A stretch of 34,528 nt of DNA from the NCBI GenBank assembly GCA_003221195.1, contig QHQO01000030.1:1-34528 (forward strand), read 5' to 3'. Each line of letters begins with the position of its first letter. The first letter of the stretch is position 1. Under the pieces are notes generated by a model. It was not told where the DNA came from. It worked only from the letters and a program-made list of their open reading frames with translations, and did not search any database. This stretch comes from Verrucomicrobiota bacterium (GTDB lineage: Bacteria > Verrucomicrobiota > Verrucomicrobiia > Chthoniobacterales > UBA10450). This document shows, piece by piece, positions 24,116 to 28,867 of this stretch. A program made the position numbers and the translations under genes.

Positions 24116-25147
24116 ATGCTTCAACCGTTCATGACTCACCCCCTCGAACAACTAAGTGACGATGCACTGCGCGAAATCGAAGCCGCGTCTGACGAACAGG
24201 CGCTCGAGGCCGCGCGCGTAAAATACCTCGGCAAGAGCGGCAGCATTTCCGCGTGGGGCGAGCAAATGAAAACGCTCGCGAAGGAAGAGAAGCCAATCAT
24301 TGGCAAACTACTCAACGAGGTTCGCAACGCCGTCACCGCCGCGATCGAAGCCCGCAACGCACAATTCCGCTTACAAAAAGAATCGGGCGCGCTTGCCAAG
24401 ATCGACATCTCCCTTCCGGGAACGCCGCACGAGATCGGCGCGCTGCACCCGCTCACGCAGATGTGGGAACGTTCGATCGAAATTTTTCGGCGAATGGGCT
24501 TCGCGCTCGCGGACGGACCGGACATTGAAGACGAATGGCATTGTTTCGACGCGCTTAACACGCCGCCCGAACATCCGGCGCGAAACGAGCAGGACACATT
24601 TTATTTACCGGACGGCCGTTTGCTCCGAACGCACACTTCGACCGTGCAGATTCGGACGATGCAAGCCGCGCCCCCGCCGATTCGTGTGATTGCTCCCGGT
24701 GCTGCGTATCGTCGCGACGAACTCGACGCCACCCACAGCCCGCAGTTTCACCAGATCGAAGGACTTTATGTCGATGAAAACGTAAGCGTCGCCGATTTGA
24801 AAGGCGCCCTCGAGTTTTTTATGCTCGAACTTTTCGGTTCGGAAACGGAAGTGCAATTTCGTCCGCACTTCTTCCCGTTCACCGAGCCGAGTCTCGAGGT
24901 TTATGTGAAATCGAAAGCGCTCAAGGGTGGCGAGCGCTGGATCGAAGTAGCCGGTTGCGGCGTGGTGCATCCTGCGGTTTTCGAGCAGGTCAACAAAGCG
25001 CGTGGTGACAAAGCTTACGATCCCGAAAAATGGAGCGGCTACGCGTTCGGTCTCGGAATGGACCGGCTCGCGATGATCCTGTTCGACATCCCCGACATCC
25101 GCCTCTTTGCGCAAAACGACCTGCGGTTTCTCCGCCAGTTCGCATGA
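24116..25147 (+). CDS. pheS: Phenylalanyl-tRNA synthetase alpha subunit
   Basis: PheS forms the catalytic part of the alpha2-beta2 enzyme that charges tRNA-Phe. An N-terminal coiled-coil region (about residues 5-75) leads into the class II synthetase core. The HPLTQMWERSIEIFRRMGF segment is motif 1-like, with RTHTSTVQIRTM and GAAYRRDELDATHSPQFHQIEG around motif 2, and GYAFGLGMDRLAMILFDIPDIR as motif 3. Full length is about 343 residues. The ATG at 24116 is chosen because an earlier ATG at 24080 lies in a dispersed repeat; ATG 24131 (MTHPLEQL) is also possible. The stop overlaps the pheT ATG by 4 bases (ATGA), so the two subunits are translationally coupled. Confidence 0.96.
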   Translation: MLQPFMTHPLEQLSDDALREIEAASDEQALEAARVKYLGKSGSISAWGEQMKTLAKEEKPIIGKLLNEVRNAVTAAIEARNAQFRLQKESGALAKIDISLPGTPHEIGALHPLTQMWERSIEIFRRMGFALADGPDIEDEWHCFDALNTPPEHPARNEQDTFYLPDGRLLRTHTSTVQIRTMQAAPPPIRVIAPGAAYRRDELDATHSPQFHQIEGLYVDENVSVADLKGALEFFMLELFGSETEVQFRPHFFPFTEPSLEVYVKSKALKGGERWIEVAGCGVVHPAVFEQVNKARGDKAYDPEKWSGYAFGLGMDRLAMILFDIPDIRLFAQNDLRFLRQFA

Positions 25148-26430
25148 AATTTTCCGTTAATTGGTTGCGCGAATTTGTTGATCTTCCAGAAAATCCGGAA
25201 GAGATCGCGGATTTGCTCACTCGCGCCGGCGTTGAAACGCAAAACATCGAAACCCGCGGCGCAAGGATCGACAAGGTGATCGTTTCGCAAATCACCGCGT
25301 CATCGCGCCATCCGAATGCTGATCGGCTCACAGTTTGCGAAGTGGACGACGGCAGCGGCACGAAACGCCAAATCGTTTGCGGCGCGACCAATTACAAAGT
25401 GGGCGACAAGGTTCCACTCGCCTTGCCGGGCGCAAAGTTGCCGGACGGAACCGAAATTAAAAAAAACAATCTGCGCGGTGTCGAATCGGAAGGAATGCTT
25501 TGCAGCCCAATCGAGCTTGGCATGGGCGAAGACGCCTCCGGCCTTTTGATTTTGTCGCCCGAAGCGAAAATCGGCACGCCGATCGGTGAATTCTTTCCCG
25601 CGGACACGATTCTCGACGTCGAGGTCACGCCAAACCGTGGCGATCTGCTTAGCCATTTTGGTCTCGCTCGCGAAATCGCGGCGCTCACCGAAAAAAAACT
25701 TAAGTCAACGGCGCGCGAATCGAAAATTCCCGTCAAGAAGACCGGCGTAACCATCACCTCAACGCACGAATGTCCCTTTTTCTCCGCGCGCAAGATCGAC
25801 AACGTTACGGTCGGACCGAGTCCGCAGTGGCTACGTATCAAGATTGAGAGCGTCGGCACTCGCTCCATCAACAACATCGTCGACATCTCCAATTTCATAA
25901 TGTTGGAGCTCGGCCAGCCTACGCATGCATTCGACGCCAATAAATTGAACGGCGGCATCAACGTGCGCCTCGCGCGTGAAGGCGAGAAATTTCTCGCGCT
26001 CGATGGAAAGACTTATTCGCTGAAGCGAGACAGTTGTGTCGTCGCCGATCAGAAGCGTGCTGTTGGCATTGGCGGTGTCATGGGTGGCGAAGAAACAGCT
26101 GTGACCGATTCGACCAAGAATATTTTACTCGAGGCAGCTTATTTCCTGCCGGCGAGTATTCGTCGGACCGCGCGGGAATTAAATTTACCTAGCGACGCCA
26201 GCTACCGATTCGAGCGCGGCGTCGATCCTGAAATGGTGCTCCGCGCGTCGCAGCGGGCCATTCGGTTTGAAGAAAATCAGCGCGGCCAAAATAACGAGAT
26301 GGAAAATTCCAAGCTACCGTCGCGATTTGCAGCGCGACGTCGATCTTATCGAAGAAGTCGTGCGAGCTTACGGCGCCGAAAGAATTCCGGGAACGGATCG
26401 AAGCCTGTTCACGCCTTCGAGCGCGGCTGA
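25144..26430 (+). CDS. pheT: Phenylalanyl-tRNA synthetase beta subunit, N-terminal part (gene disrupted)
   Basis: PheT carries tRNA binding, editing and structural domains of PheRS. This frame is normal up to about base 26265: the tRNA-binding/EMAP domain (DKVIVSQITASSRHPNADRL, about 40-150), then the B1/B3-B4 region with the editing site (IVDISNFIMLELGQPTHAFD) and YRFERGVDPEMVLRASQRAIR. After RAIR the reading becomes unrelated and Arg-rich (EENQRGQNNEMENS...) until the stop at 26428-26430. The true continuation lies in another frame from about 26261. Compared with other PheTs, some 50-60 residues between RAIR and the FGLKK stretch appear missing. The gap therefore looks like a deletion of roughly 150-190 bases that is not a multiple of three. 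Confidence 0.93.
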   Translation: MKFSVNWLREFVDLPENPEEIADLLTRAGVETQNIETRGARIDKVIVSQITASSRHPNADRLTVCEVDDGSGTKRQIVCGATNYKVGDKVPLALPGAKLPDGTEIKKNNLRGVESEGMLCSPIELGMGEDASGLLILSPEAKIGTPIGEFFPADTILDVEVTPNRGDLLSHFGLAREIAALTEKKLKSTARESKIPVKKTGVTITSTHECPFFSARKIDNVTVGPSPQWLRIKIESVGTRSINNIVDISNFIMLELGQPTHAFDANKLNGGINVRLAREGEKFLALDGKTYSLKRDSCVVADQKRAVGIGGVMGGEETAVTDSTKNILLEAAYFLPASIRRTARELNLPSDASYRFERGVDPEMVLRASQRAIRFEENQRGQNNEMENSKLPSRFAARRRSYRRSRASLRRRKNSGNGSKPVHAFERG

Positions 26431-27328
26431 TCGCGCGCACGATTTGGAATCACAGATACGCGAACGACTGGTTGCAGCTGGCCTGAATGAAGTGCGGACG
26501 TCAAAGTTGCTTCCGAGAGAAAGATTCGGGTTTGGGGAAAATGCAATCGAGTTACGTAATCCGCTGAGTGAAGATCACGTGGCGCTACGCCCCAGCTTGC
26601 TGGCGGGGTTGCTAGGAGTACTGGATCACAACATTCGTGCGGGAGCGAAACGCGTCGCGATCTTTGAAACAGGCAGGGTTTTCGAACCACCGAGCGGCGC
26701 AGAAAAGAAACGAGTAGCTATTCTCCTTTGGGGTAACCTTGGCAATGAAGTTCATTGGCGGAACGAAAAACGGCCGCTCGATTTTTTCGACCTGAAAAGC
26801 GCGATTGAATTAACAAGAAACGACAAATTGTCGTATCAGCGCGGTCTTAAGAATAGGAACATGGCACTTACCGTGGACATCCTTACAAACCATGACTTAA
26901 TTGGTGTAGCAGGCCAGCTATCCAACGCGCTCTCCTCGAAACTCGACGCTTCGGGTGGTGTTTTTGTTGCAGAAGTATCGCTTGATTTTCCGACAACGAG
27001 CCGAGGACTCCACGCGACTTTCCGCGAATTTGGAAAGTTTCCGGCAGTCACGCGCGACATTGCAATGATTGTGCCTGAGACTCTGAGTCACGAAGAAATA
27101 TCGAACGTAATTCTGCAGAAGGAGCCTTTGCTGGAAACAGTCGCGTTTTTCGATCGGGTCGTTGGCAAAGAGGCCGAGCAACTGTTTGGCCCAGGAAAAA
27201 AGTCGGTCGCATATAGATTGACATATCGCGACCGGAGTCGCACACTGACAAGCGAGGAAGTGAATGCGGCGCATGCGAAAATTCGCGAGCGATTGCGAAG
27301 CGACCTCGGCGCAGAATTGCGCGAATAG
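26261..27328 (+). CDS. pheT: Phenylalanyl-tRNA synthetase beta subunit, C-terminal part (gene disrupted)
   Basis: This is the downstream half of pheT in a shifted frame. It resumes inside the B5 domain (FGLKKISAAKITRWKIPSYRR, then DVDLIEEVVRAYGAERIP). It continues through the catalytic-like core (ESQIRERLVAAGLNEVRTSKLL, PLSEDHVALRPSLLAGLLGVL) to the C-terminal anticodon-binding/FDX-ACB domain (FPAVTRDIAMIVPETLSHEE, then YRLTYRDRSRTLTSEEVNAAH). The end at 27328 is the normal C-terminus. No proper start codon serves this part (only TTG at 26267), so it is expressed only if the gene is intact in the genome. All conserved motifs on both sides are well preserved, which argues against an old pseudogene. 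Confidence 0.92.
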   Translation, partial: FGLKKISAAKITRWKIPSYRRDLQRDVDLIEEVVRAYGAERIPGTDRSLFTPSSAADRAHDLESQIRERLVAAGLNEVRTSKLLPRERFGFGENAIELRNPLSEDHVALRPSLLAGLLGVLDHNIRAGAKRVAIFETGRVFEPPSGAEKKRVAILLWGNLGNEVHWRNEKRPLDFFDLKSAIELTRNDKLSYQRGLKNRNMALTVDILTNHDLIGVAGQLSNALSSKLDASGGVFVAEVSLDFPTTSRGLHATFREFGKFPAVTRDIAMIVPETLSHEEISNVILQKEPLLETVAFFDRVVGKEAEQLFGPGKKSVAYRLTYRDRSRTLTSEEVNAAHAKIRERLRSDLGAELRE

Positions 27329-27340
27329 TTCTTTGAAAGT

Positions 27341-27411
27341 GTGAGAGTCGTTTGTTGAGGGTTGGGAAGAAAACCAGTGCTTTTCTCTCAACTCTCAACC
27401 AGCGGCTCTCA
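27341..27411. repeat. GAGAGT...CTCAACTCTCAACC inverted repeat after pheT
   Basis: The left arm (about 27343-27369, including TTGTTGAGGGTTGGGAAG) and right arm (about 27381-27408, including CTCTCAACTCTCAACCA and GGCTCTC) are imperfect complements with a short loop. It lies 13 bases after the pheT stop, between pheT and the 6S RNA. It lacks a U-tract, so terminator activity is doubtful. Confidence 0.6.
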
Positions 27412-27432: not shown

Positions 27433-27620
27433 CTTTACCCTGCGATGTTCGAGATTACAGGTGGGATTCCCGAACCGATATTTGGTTAACCTAAGGAGGC
27501 TGAGTCGCTCGGAGAAGATGGCAGGCCTTAATTGGAAGTCAGACGCTGCGGCGACGGTCATCCGCCCGTTACGAAAAGGGAACGGGAGATCCGCCTAAAC
27601 GGCATCAGCGGGGTAACATT
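27433..27620 (+). ncRNA. ssrS: 6S RNA (SsrS)
   Basis: 6S RNA mimics an open promoter and sequesters sigma-70 RNA polymerase in stationary phase. The segment matches the hallmark blocks of the E. coli RNA in order. CCTGCGATGTTCG is near the 5' end, then a purine-rich stretch with CCCGAACCGATATTT, then CTCGGAGAAG and GCCTTAA, then GCTGCGGCGAC, with ACGGCATCAGCGGGGTAA at the 3' end. The ends pair (TTACCC with GGGTAA, GATG with CATC), closing the long hairpin around the central bubble. Length is about 188 bases. A strong intrinsic terminator follows immediately. Exact ends are estimated from the closing stem; no clear promoter hexamers were seen. Confidence 0.82.
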
Positions 27621-27622
27621 TC

Positions 27623-27658
27623 AAAAAACCCGGATCGAGATTTCGATCCGGGTTTTTT
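27623..27658 (+). terminator. Rho-independent terminator of the 6S RNA gene
   Basis: The stem ACCCGGATCGA / TCGATCCGGGT, extended by A/T pairs, has a 4-base loop (GATT) and is followed by TTTTTT. It lies a few bases after the 6S closing stem. Its A-run on the other side makes it potentially bidirectional. Confidence 0.92.
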
Positions 27659-27724
27659 CGTTTAGGCATTCGGCGTTCTAACTGATTTGAAAATGGCGCG
27701 CAAAGATCGACAGTGCGCGGTGAC

Positions 27725-28867
27725 ATGCGCGCCCTGTTAGCTCTCGAAGACGGTCGATTTTTCGAGGGCGAATCATTTGGCGCGACCGGTACCCGCGTCG
27801 GCGAGGTTTGTTTCAACACGGCCATGACCGGTTATCAGGAAGTACTGACGGATCCTTCATACCGCGGCCAGATTGTGGCGATGACTTATCCGTTGATCGG
27901 CAATTACGGCACGAACTCGCTCGATCAGGAAAGCCACTCGCCACACGTCAGCGGTTTTGTCATCGAAGAGCTGAGCGAAATCCCGAGCAACTGGCGCTCG
28001 GAAATGTCGCTCGATCAATATTTGAAAAAATGGAACATCCCCGGCGCGCAAGGAATTGATACTCGCGCGTTGACCCGGCACTTGCGCACCCGCGGCGCAA
28101 TGAAGGCTTGTTTGACTACGGAAGAGATTTCTCCGGAAGAAGCGACGCAGCAGGCCATCAAAGGCGAGGGCGTTATCGGCATGGATTACGTTCGCGAAGT
28201 TTCAGCGCGCGAAATTTATCAATGGGACGCCGAGGACAAATTGAGCGCACCCTGGTCAATCAGATCCACTAACGGCGGAATCAAACCCAGCCTTCCGGCG
28301 GTCCGATTTCGCATCGTCGCCTACGATTATGGAATCAAAGAAAATATTCTGCGGCTTCTGCGGCAGAAAGGCTTTCGCGTCACCGTTGCACCAGCAACCA
28401 CAACTGCCAAAGAAGTGCTCGCGCTAAATCCGGATGGCGTTTTTCTTTCCAATGGACCGGGAGATCCCGCAGCTCTGCCTTATGCGCACAAAGCGACGCG
28501 CGATTTGATGGGCAAGAAGCCGATTTTCGGGATTTGTCTCGGTCATCAGATTCTTGGATTCGCGTTCGGCGGATCGACTTACAAATTGAAATTTGGGCAT
28601 CACGGTGCGAACCAGCCCGTAAAAGATTTGAGCAGCGGTAAGGTGGCAATCACGGCCCAAAATCACGGGTTCGCAGTCGATCCCGACTCGCTGCCGTCCA
28701 ACGTAGAAGTGACGCACATAAATCTGAACGATGGCACCGTGGAAGGAATGCGGCACAAGGAATTGCCGATCTTCAGTGTGCAATATCATCCCGAAGCCGC
28801 GCCCGGCCCGCATGACGCTTCCTACTTCTTCGATCAGTTCGCGGATTTGCTCGAGAGGAGCGCGTGA
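27725..28867 (+). CDS. carA: Carbamoyl-phosphate synthase small subunit (glutaminase) CarA
   Basis: CarA hydrolyses glutamine and channels ammonia to CarB to make carbamoyl phosphate for pyrimidine and arginine synthesis. The 380-residue product has the N-terminal CPSase domain ([39 protein letters not shown]) and the class I glutaminase domain. The nucleophile Cys is in [11 protein letters not shown], the oxyanion-type stretch is LSNGPGDP, and the catalytic His and Glu are in [12 protein letters not shown]. The ATG at 27725 gives the usual [10 protein letters not shown] start; one four codons earlier is less likely. carB is not adjacent downstream. Confidence 0.97.

Follow-up and report, generated by a model that had tools for sequence, protein, structure and literature searches.

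The window analysed here is the whole stretch of 34,528 nucleotides, and its host genome belongs to the phylum Verrucomicrobiota, order Chthoniobacterales; the genus may be Candidatus Udaeobacter. Between pheT and carA the window carries a 6S RNA gene together with a leader and a terminator, laid out as follows.

26267-27328, plus strand: 3' part of pheT, phenylalanyl-tRNA synthetase beta chain (Pfam PF17759, PF03484, PF03147), with the stop codon TAG at 27326-27328.
27218-27246, plus strand: probable 6S promoter within the pheT coding sequence, recognised by codon constraint; -35 TTGACA (27218-27223), 17-bp spacer, -10 CACACT (27241-27246).
27328-27338, plus strand: boxA-like element GTTCTTTGAAA, starting within the pheT stop codon, recognised by its match to the consensus.
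27343-27410, plus strand: long hairpin in the leader of 6S, a conserved feature of the window's family that covariation upholds (alignment A2); probable processing site.
27434-27618, plus strand: 6S RNA (SsrS), mature region, assigned by RF00013 match, fold, single copy, orthologues and covariation.
27479, plus strand: predicted template base for the start of pRNA, the U of a conserved CCGAU, placed by analogy with E. coli U44.
27623-27658, plus strand: intrinsic terminator, an almost perfect palindrome carrying runs of A and T, by sequence and fold.
27713-28867, plus strand: carA, carbamoyl-phosphate synthase small chain (PF00988, PF00117), a neighbour outside the 6S unit.

The pheT gene of the window is split over two frames by a frameshift (25030-26430 and 26267-27328). 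Both parts lie in a single frame in the close relative L003; the frameshift is either a sequencing error or a real lesion.

The first-pass annotation had claimed a 6S RNA between pheT and carA, and the RF00013 and Pfam searches upheld its identity, coordinates and neighbours. The match of RF00013 to 27434-27618 on the plus strand covers the full model (1-187 of 187) with 38.2 bits and an E-value of 2.1e-6 in a search of 401 bases, and it is the single match in the whole genome. That annotation had also named a covariance score below threshold as grounds for rejection. The full-length match is significant, but the window copy taken alone does score under the Rfam gathering cut-off for RF00013 (38.2 against 46.4 bits), which is an annotation threshold and not a biological feature. 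Automatic annotation therefore overlooks the gene; an Rfam scan of the window found no family reaching its own cut-off anywhere in it. Matches to mir-627 and Thr_leader, far under their own cut-offs, fall on the leader hairpin or the terminator and were rejected. Within the order, RF00013 matched at E<=0.001 in 103 of 147 genomes and passed the cut-off in 56 of the 147; the window's own family contributes seven passing genomes (G064, G135, G073, G094, G128, G036 and G106), and orthologues of the window 6S at the same locus exceed the cut-off. A DNA search with the 6S element found it in 47 of 58 relatives, and a plasmid search with the 6S sequence gave no match.

Folding of the region gives a single long hairpin with interruptions, as had been predicted for it (z -4.2; 0 of 200 shuffles equally stable). 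To this fold we added an alignment, A1, of 40 loci hand-picked for diversity among those available. In it, the closing stem leads through a broken inner stem to a wide bubble, whose 3' strand holds a small hairpin; a long terminal stem completes the structure. Both sides had changed in 28 of the 49 pairs, and 93.9% of cells were paired, against 83.5% in shuffled and 35-47% in slid controls; none of 500 shuffles matched the real alignment on any measure. Compensatory changes uphold the closing stem, the central bubble and the terminal stem, and in the small 3' bubble hairpin (helix 9 of A1) 90.6% of cells are paired and two of four pairs show two-sided change. R1, a 6S model built from the A1 helices, detected 6S in 129 of the 147 order genomes and in 95 of the 101 good ones, a recovery that is partly by construction because many of the searched genomes supplied its sequences. 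Since the match is full-length, same-locus orthologues pass the cut-off and the helices covary, 27434-27618 is, on these sequence grounds, a true 6S RNA gene; the orthologues and the covariation outweigh the sub-threshold score of the window copy. The CCGAU in the 5' bubble strand is largely conserved among the aligned 6S sequences. Its U at 27479 we take to be the equivalent of U44 in E. coli 6S, and by that analogy the predicted pRNA of the window 6S would begin AUCGGUUCGGG. Two assemblies hold two 6S copies each, G029 (G029:C25 and G029:C280) and G074 (G074:C91 and G074:C92); these are probably strain mixture or contig ends.

The first-pass annotation had remarked that the placement of the gene differs from the fau linkage of proteobacteria. 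This stands, with the refinement that the pheT-6S arrangement is no local oddity. For the order, synteny was read at 125 loci of the 129 R1-positive genomes (G074, G083, G101 and G158 were excluded for contig-end or split hits); in 110 of these loci 6S has pheT upstream and in the same orientation, and in 46 it has carA downstream. For the rest of the phylum we used 101 of the 102 genomes above the cut-off, excluding G253. Among these 101 loci, pheT is upstream in 41, rarA (identified by NCBIfam and Pfam) downstream in 38, and both are present in 32. The 24 6S loci of 24 genomes from other groups have pheT nearby in none and RarA in one. From these neighbours we infer an ancestral order pheT-6S-rarA in the phylum. 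The gap between the pheT stop codon and 6S is as short as 11-28 nt in family f12 and in parts of f5 and f13. In several loci of other classes of the phylum (L144-L163), a short ORF with a TWIE- or QWIE-like N-terminal start lies between pheT and 6S. These small ORFs resemble short membrane-like peptides, and their identification as ZapA was rejected, since all seven tested lack a Pfam match. On the contig of L004, carA is reversed over the pheT end beside 6S, probably a misassembly. In family f8 (G043, G052, G061 and G070) 6S was absent from all four genomes by RF00013 and R1, and the loci near pheT (L368-L371) gave no 6S match either; the RNA may have been lost there or have strongly diverged. 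Two of the four f8 genomes measure 0.9 Mb.

The interval first proposed for the gene, 27433-27658, correctly holds the 6S RNA and its strong terminator, found as a hairpin with a T run at 27623-27658, and omits the probable promoter and boxA-like leader upstream. Because the near-perfect palindrome carries both A and T runs, the terminator is possibly bidirectional. In the leader, GTTCTTTGAAA agrees with the gammaproteobacterial boxA consensus GYTCTTTAANA (PMC5725501) at 10 of its 11 positions. In linked leaders, G[TA]TCTTT occurs at the pheT stop codon or shortly past it. We counted the core [TA]TCTTT in the 130 nt ahead of 6S. Of 110 linked order loci 83 have it, where shuffled sequences gave a mean of 16.1 and a maximum of 20 (20 shuffles) and the opposite strand gave 3. 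Unlinked order loci have it in 10 of 14 (shuffle mean 2.9), and in the rest of the phylum it occurs in 25 of 41 linked (shuffle mean 2.9) and 10 of 60 unlinked loci (shuffle mean 5.0). In 72 of 106 linked loci the element is at most 27 nt from the pheT stop codon, and in 53 of these it abuts the codon directly. Where 6S does not adjoin pheT, none of 12 unlinked and none of 4 f8 pheT genes has it near the stop codon, and of 17 from other orders of the class only 1 does, indicating that the element accompanies 6S and not pheT. A similar element lies within 400 nt of the 16S gene in 9 of 10 rRNA leaders of the order, a count made without a shuffle control. By analogy with rRNA leaders, the boxA-like element probably recruits NusB-S10. 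The motif is short, and most of f13 lacks it or carries an altered form.

The long hairpin that follows was aligned from 22 hairpin-bearing loci of the window's family or of relatives found through CarA (A2); 12 of its pairs show two-sided change, and pairing holds in 96.6% of cells. In some relatives the hairpin ends 2-6 nt ahead of 6S, and from this position the simplest reading is that it is a probable processing stem. We ruled it out as a terminator, since no T run follows it, and as a dispersed repeat, since elsewhere in the genome it has just weak and partial matches, all on one other contig (E 0.0025 and 0.0093).

To locate the start of transcription we scanned for sigma-70 promoters, using E. 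coli base frequencies and a threshold of p<=0.05. At the mature 5' end, promoters were found in only 6 of 110 linked loci of the order and 2 of 41 linked loci in the rest of the phylum. The same scan was positive at 38 of 60 unlinked loci of the phylum, a set dominated by family f17 (25 of 25) in which at least half of the loci were positive in 6 of 14 families; the scan thus has power, and the linked 6S genes appear to have no promoter at the mature end. The 6S genes of the class outside the order lie mostly apart from pheT, L165-L167 of f17 being examples. Among order loci without adjoining pheT, the mature end had a promoter in only 1 of 14, indicating that the absence is not due to linkage alone (the unlinked order locus L115, with 50 bases upstream, was excluded from the promoter and boxA counts). 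When the scan was widened to -215 to -20, 55 of 109 linked order loci yielded a promoter-like hit at p<=0.05. Inspection revealed a recurring element, TTGAC, 17 bp, NACNYT, located in the codons L-T-Y/F ... R-T-L of the pheT C-terminus; transcription from the window copy (27218-27246) would be expected to start near 27253. The mature-end scan therefore speaks to starts at that end alone. It had suggested that 6S arises solely by processing of pheT mRNA, a reading we rejected, as the wider scan and the codon tests below point to the pheT-internal element.

Protein conservation could mimic conservation of a promoter, and we therefore tested synonymous codon choice. The counts cover 109 of the 110 linked order pheT genes; the unlinked G086 (no pheT match), G163 and G162 were excluded. 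The leucine codon at the -35 position is TTG in 103 of the 109, where the genes' own codon usage predicts 24.6. Elsewhere it is TTG in 1 of 12 order genomes with a distant 6S, in 1 of 4 from f8 and in 0 of 17 from other orders of the class; linked pheT genes of the phylum outside the order have it in 16 of 41 against 8.1 expected, with no clear promoter there. When 6S lies within 300 nt of pheT, which we define as close linkage (n=105), TTG is used in 101 of 105, a difference from the 16 others with Fisher p 1.2e-11, but the rows are related. At the other leucine columns of pheT the TTG share is 8-48%. The threonine codon that follows is ACA in 71, ACT in 31 and ACC in 3 of the 105 closely linked genes. 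Mapped on the tree, codon changes number 3 at the -35 leucine against 26-45 at seven other leucine columns, and 14 at the neighbouring threonine against 40 at another threonine. Across eight independent pairs in which pheT and 6S have separated, TTG tracks linkage in about 5.5 and runs opposite in 1; with a median sign-test p of 0.125 this contrast is not significant and is suggestive. The -35 of the embedded element is thus consensus and constrained; its -10, NACNYT, is weak, with two of six bases dictated by the protein.

Four closely linked genomes do not use TTG, namely L265 and three from one lineage of f13 (L113, L268 and L271); as the codon is missing, their 6S may have a different promoter. 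Among 14 unlinked 6S loci of the order, TTGAC is present within 330 nt upstream in 11 and missing in three; over that length, chance alone would give it in perhaps a third. Three of the loci, L204, L201 and L238, have it 17 bp ahead of GANNNT immediately before boxA, without pheT, and in L234 and L270 it lies within an apparent decayed pheT tail, as expected if the promoter stayed with 6S while pheT was lost. The TTG constraint appears relaxed where 6S and pheT have parted.

Together, these data make it likely, judged from the sequence, that the expression unit consists of an embedded promoter, a boxA leader, 6S and the terminator, with a start inside the pheT coding sequence and with 6S acting as it does elsewhere. 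As the codon constraint at the DNA level suggests, transcription of 6S would start at the element near the 3' end of the pheT coding sequence, whose Leu-Thr ... Arg-Thr-Leu codons would double as -35 and -10. The precursor would run across the pheT stop codon and the boxA-like element, where NusB-S10 may help the polymerase to pass untranslated structured RNA; in the window's family it would then cross the long hairpin, probably cut at 5'-end maturation, and end at the terminator 27623-27658. By homology, the mature RNA would mimic an open promoter and capture the housekeeping RNA polymerase holoenzyme, which pRNA synthesis would release. Read-through from pheT may add to 6S expression. The broader proposal, that the 6S of Chthoniobacterales is expressed in the manner of rRNA, from a TTGAC promoter in pheT codons through a boxA at the stop codon, Nus antitermination and hairpin processing, we regard as evenly balanced between right and wrong.

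It is improbable, in our judgement, that 6S is promoterless and cut out of the pheST mRNA, the TTG constraint having another cause. The linked loci do lack a promoter at the mature 5' end, the gaps after the pheT stop codon shrink to 11-28 nt in f12 and parts of f5 and f13, boxA acts as RNA only, and the hairpin adjoining 6S resembles a processing stem. Such excision leaves unexplained a near-invariant TTG plus ACW placed exactly at -35 with 17-bp spacing and relaxed where 6S has left, and the same elements precede unlinked 6S genes. Even less credit goes to the idea that TTG ACA is kept for a reason specific to pheT (translation speed, the protein, or a carA promoter). The element does lie within the conserved FDX-ACB domain and carA does follow in 46 of 125 loci, but TTG is retained in families without carA behind and lost in most pheT genes whose 6S moved. 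A chance hairpin or a different RNA in place of 6S has a negligible probability, the window score under the Rfam cut-off being set against the full-length match, orthologues over the cut-off, covariation, single copy and conserved place.

The finding adds a 6S RNA that the standard family cut-off misses in the majority of genomes of an abundant order of soil bacteria, and a clear case of a regulatory-RNA promoter probably hidden in the codons of an essential protein. If the broader proposal is true, a synonymous codon choice in pheT would have been maintained for the sake of 6S over much of the order. The genomes in which the two genes parted form a natural experiment, with an apparent relaxation of the constraint. 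If boxA holds, 6S expression would be coupled to the rRNA antitermination machinery, joining two growth-rate controls. A literature search, with most subscription journals outside its scope, found no paper on 6S with pheT and nothing linking boxA to 6S, though two papers contain both of the latter terms; for 6S in Verrucomicrobia, among the matches listed only PMC8321541 mentions both terms, once each. We treat this silence as weak evidence of absence.

Like the 6S RNAs of RF00013 (E. coli ssrS, B. subtilis bsrA), the gene is single and of the same length, and its RNA has a closing stem, an open central bubble, a hairpin in the 3' bubble strand and the conserved CCGAU. Unlike typical members, the window copy has diverged below the cut-off, its promoter apparently lies inside the upstream gene, and its leader carries a boxA-like element. 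E. coli ssrS has a distal promoter, P2, which gives a long precursor that is then trimmed, and also a proximal promoter. The inferred start some 200 nt upstream and the trimmed precursor of the window 6S resemble P2; unlike in ssrS, no proximal promoter is seen, and the distal element is under codon-level constraint across an order. The candidate boxA resembles that of rRNA leaders with the Nus factor complex (PMC5725501) in 10 of 11 consensus positions and in the structured untranslated RNA downstream; unlike the rRNA boxA it stands before 6S and overlaps a stop codon. In its genomic place, the window 6S follows pheT, in contrast to the zapA-6S-fau order of Proteobacteria (PMC7641849) and to the adjoining RarA gene in lactic acid bacteria and B. 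subtilis (PMC8414754).
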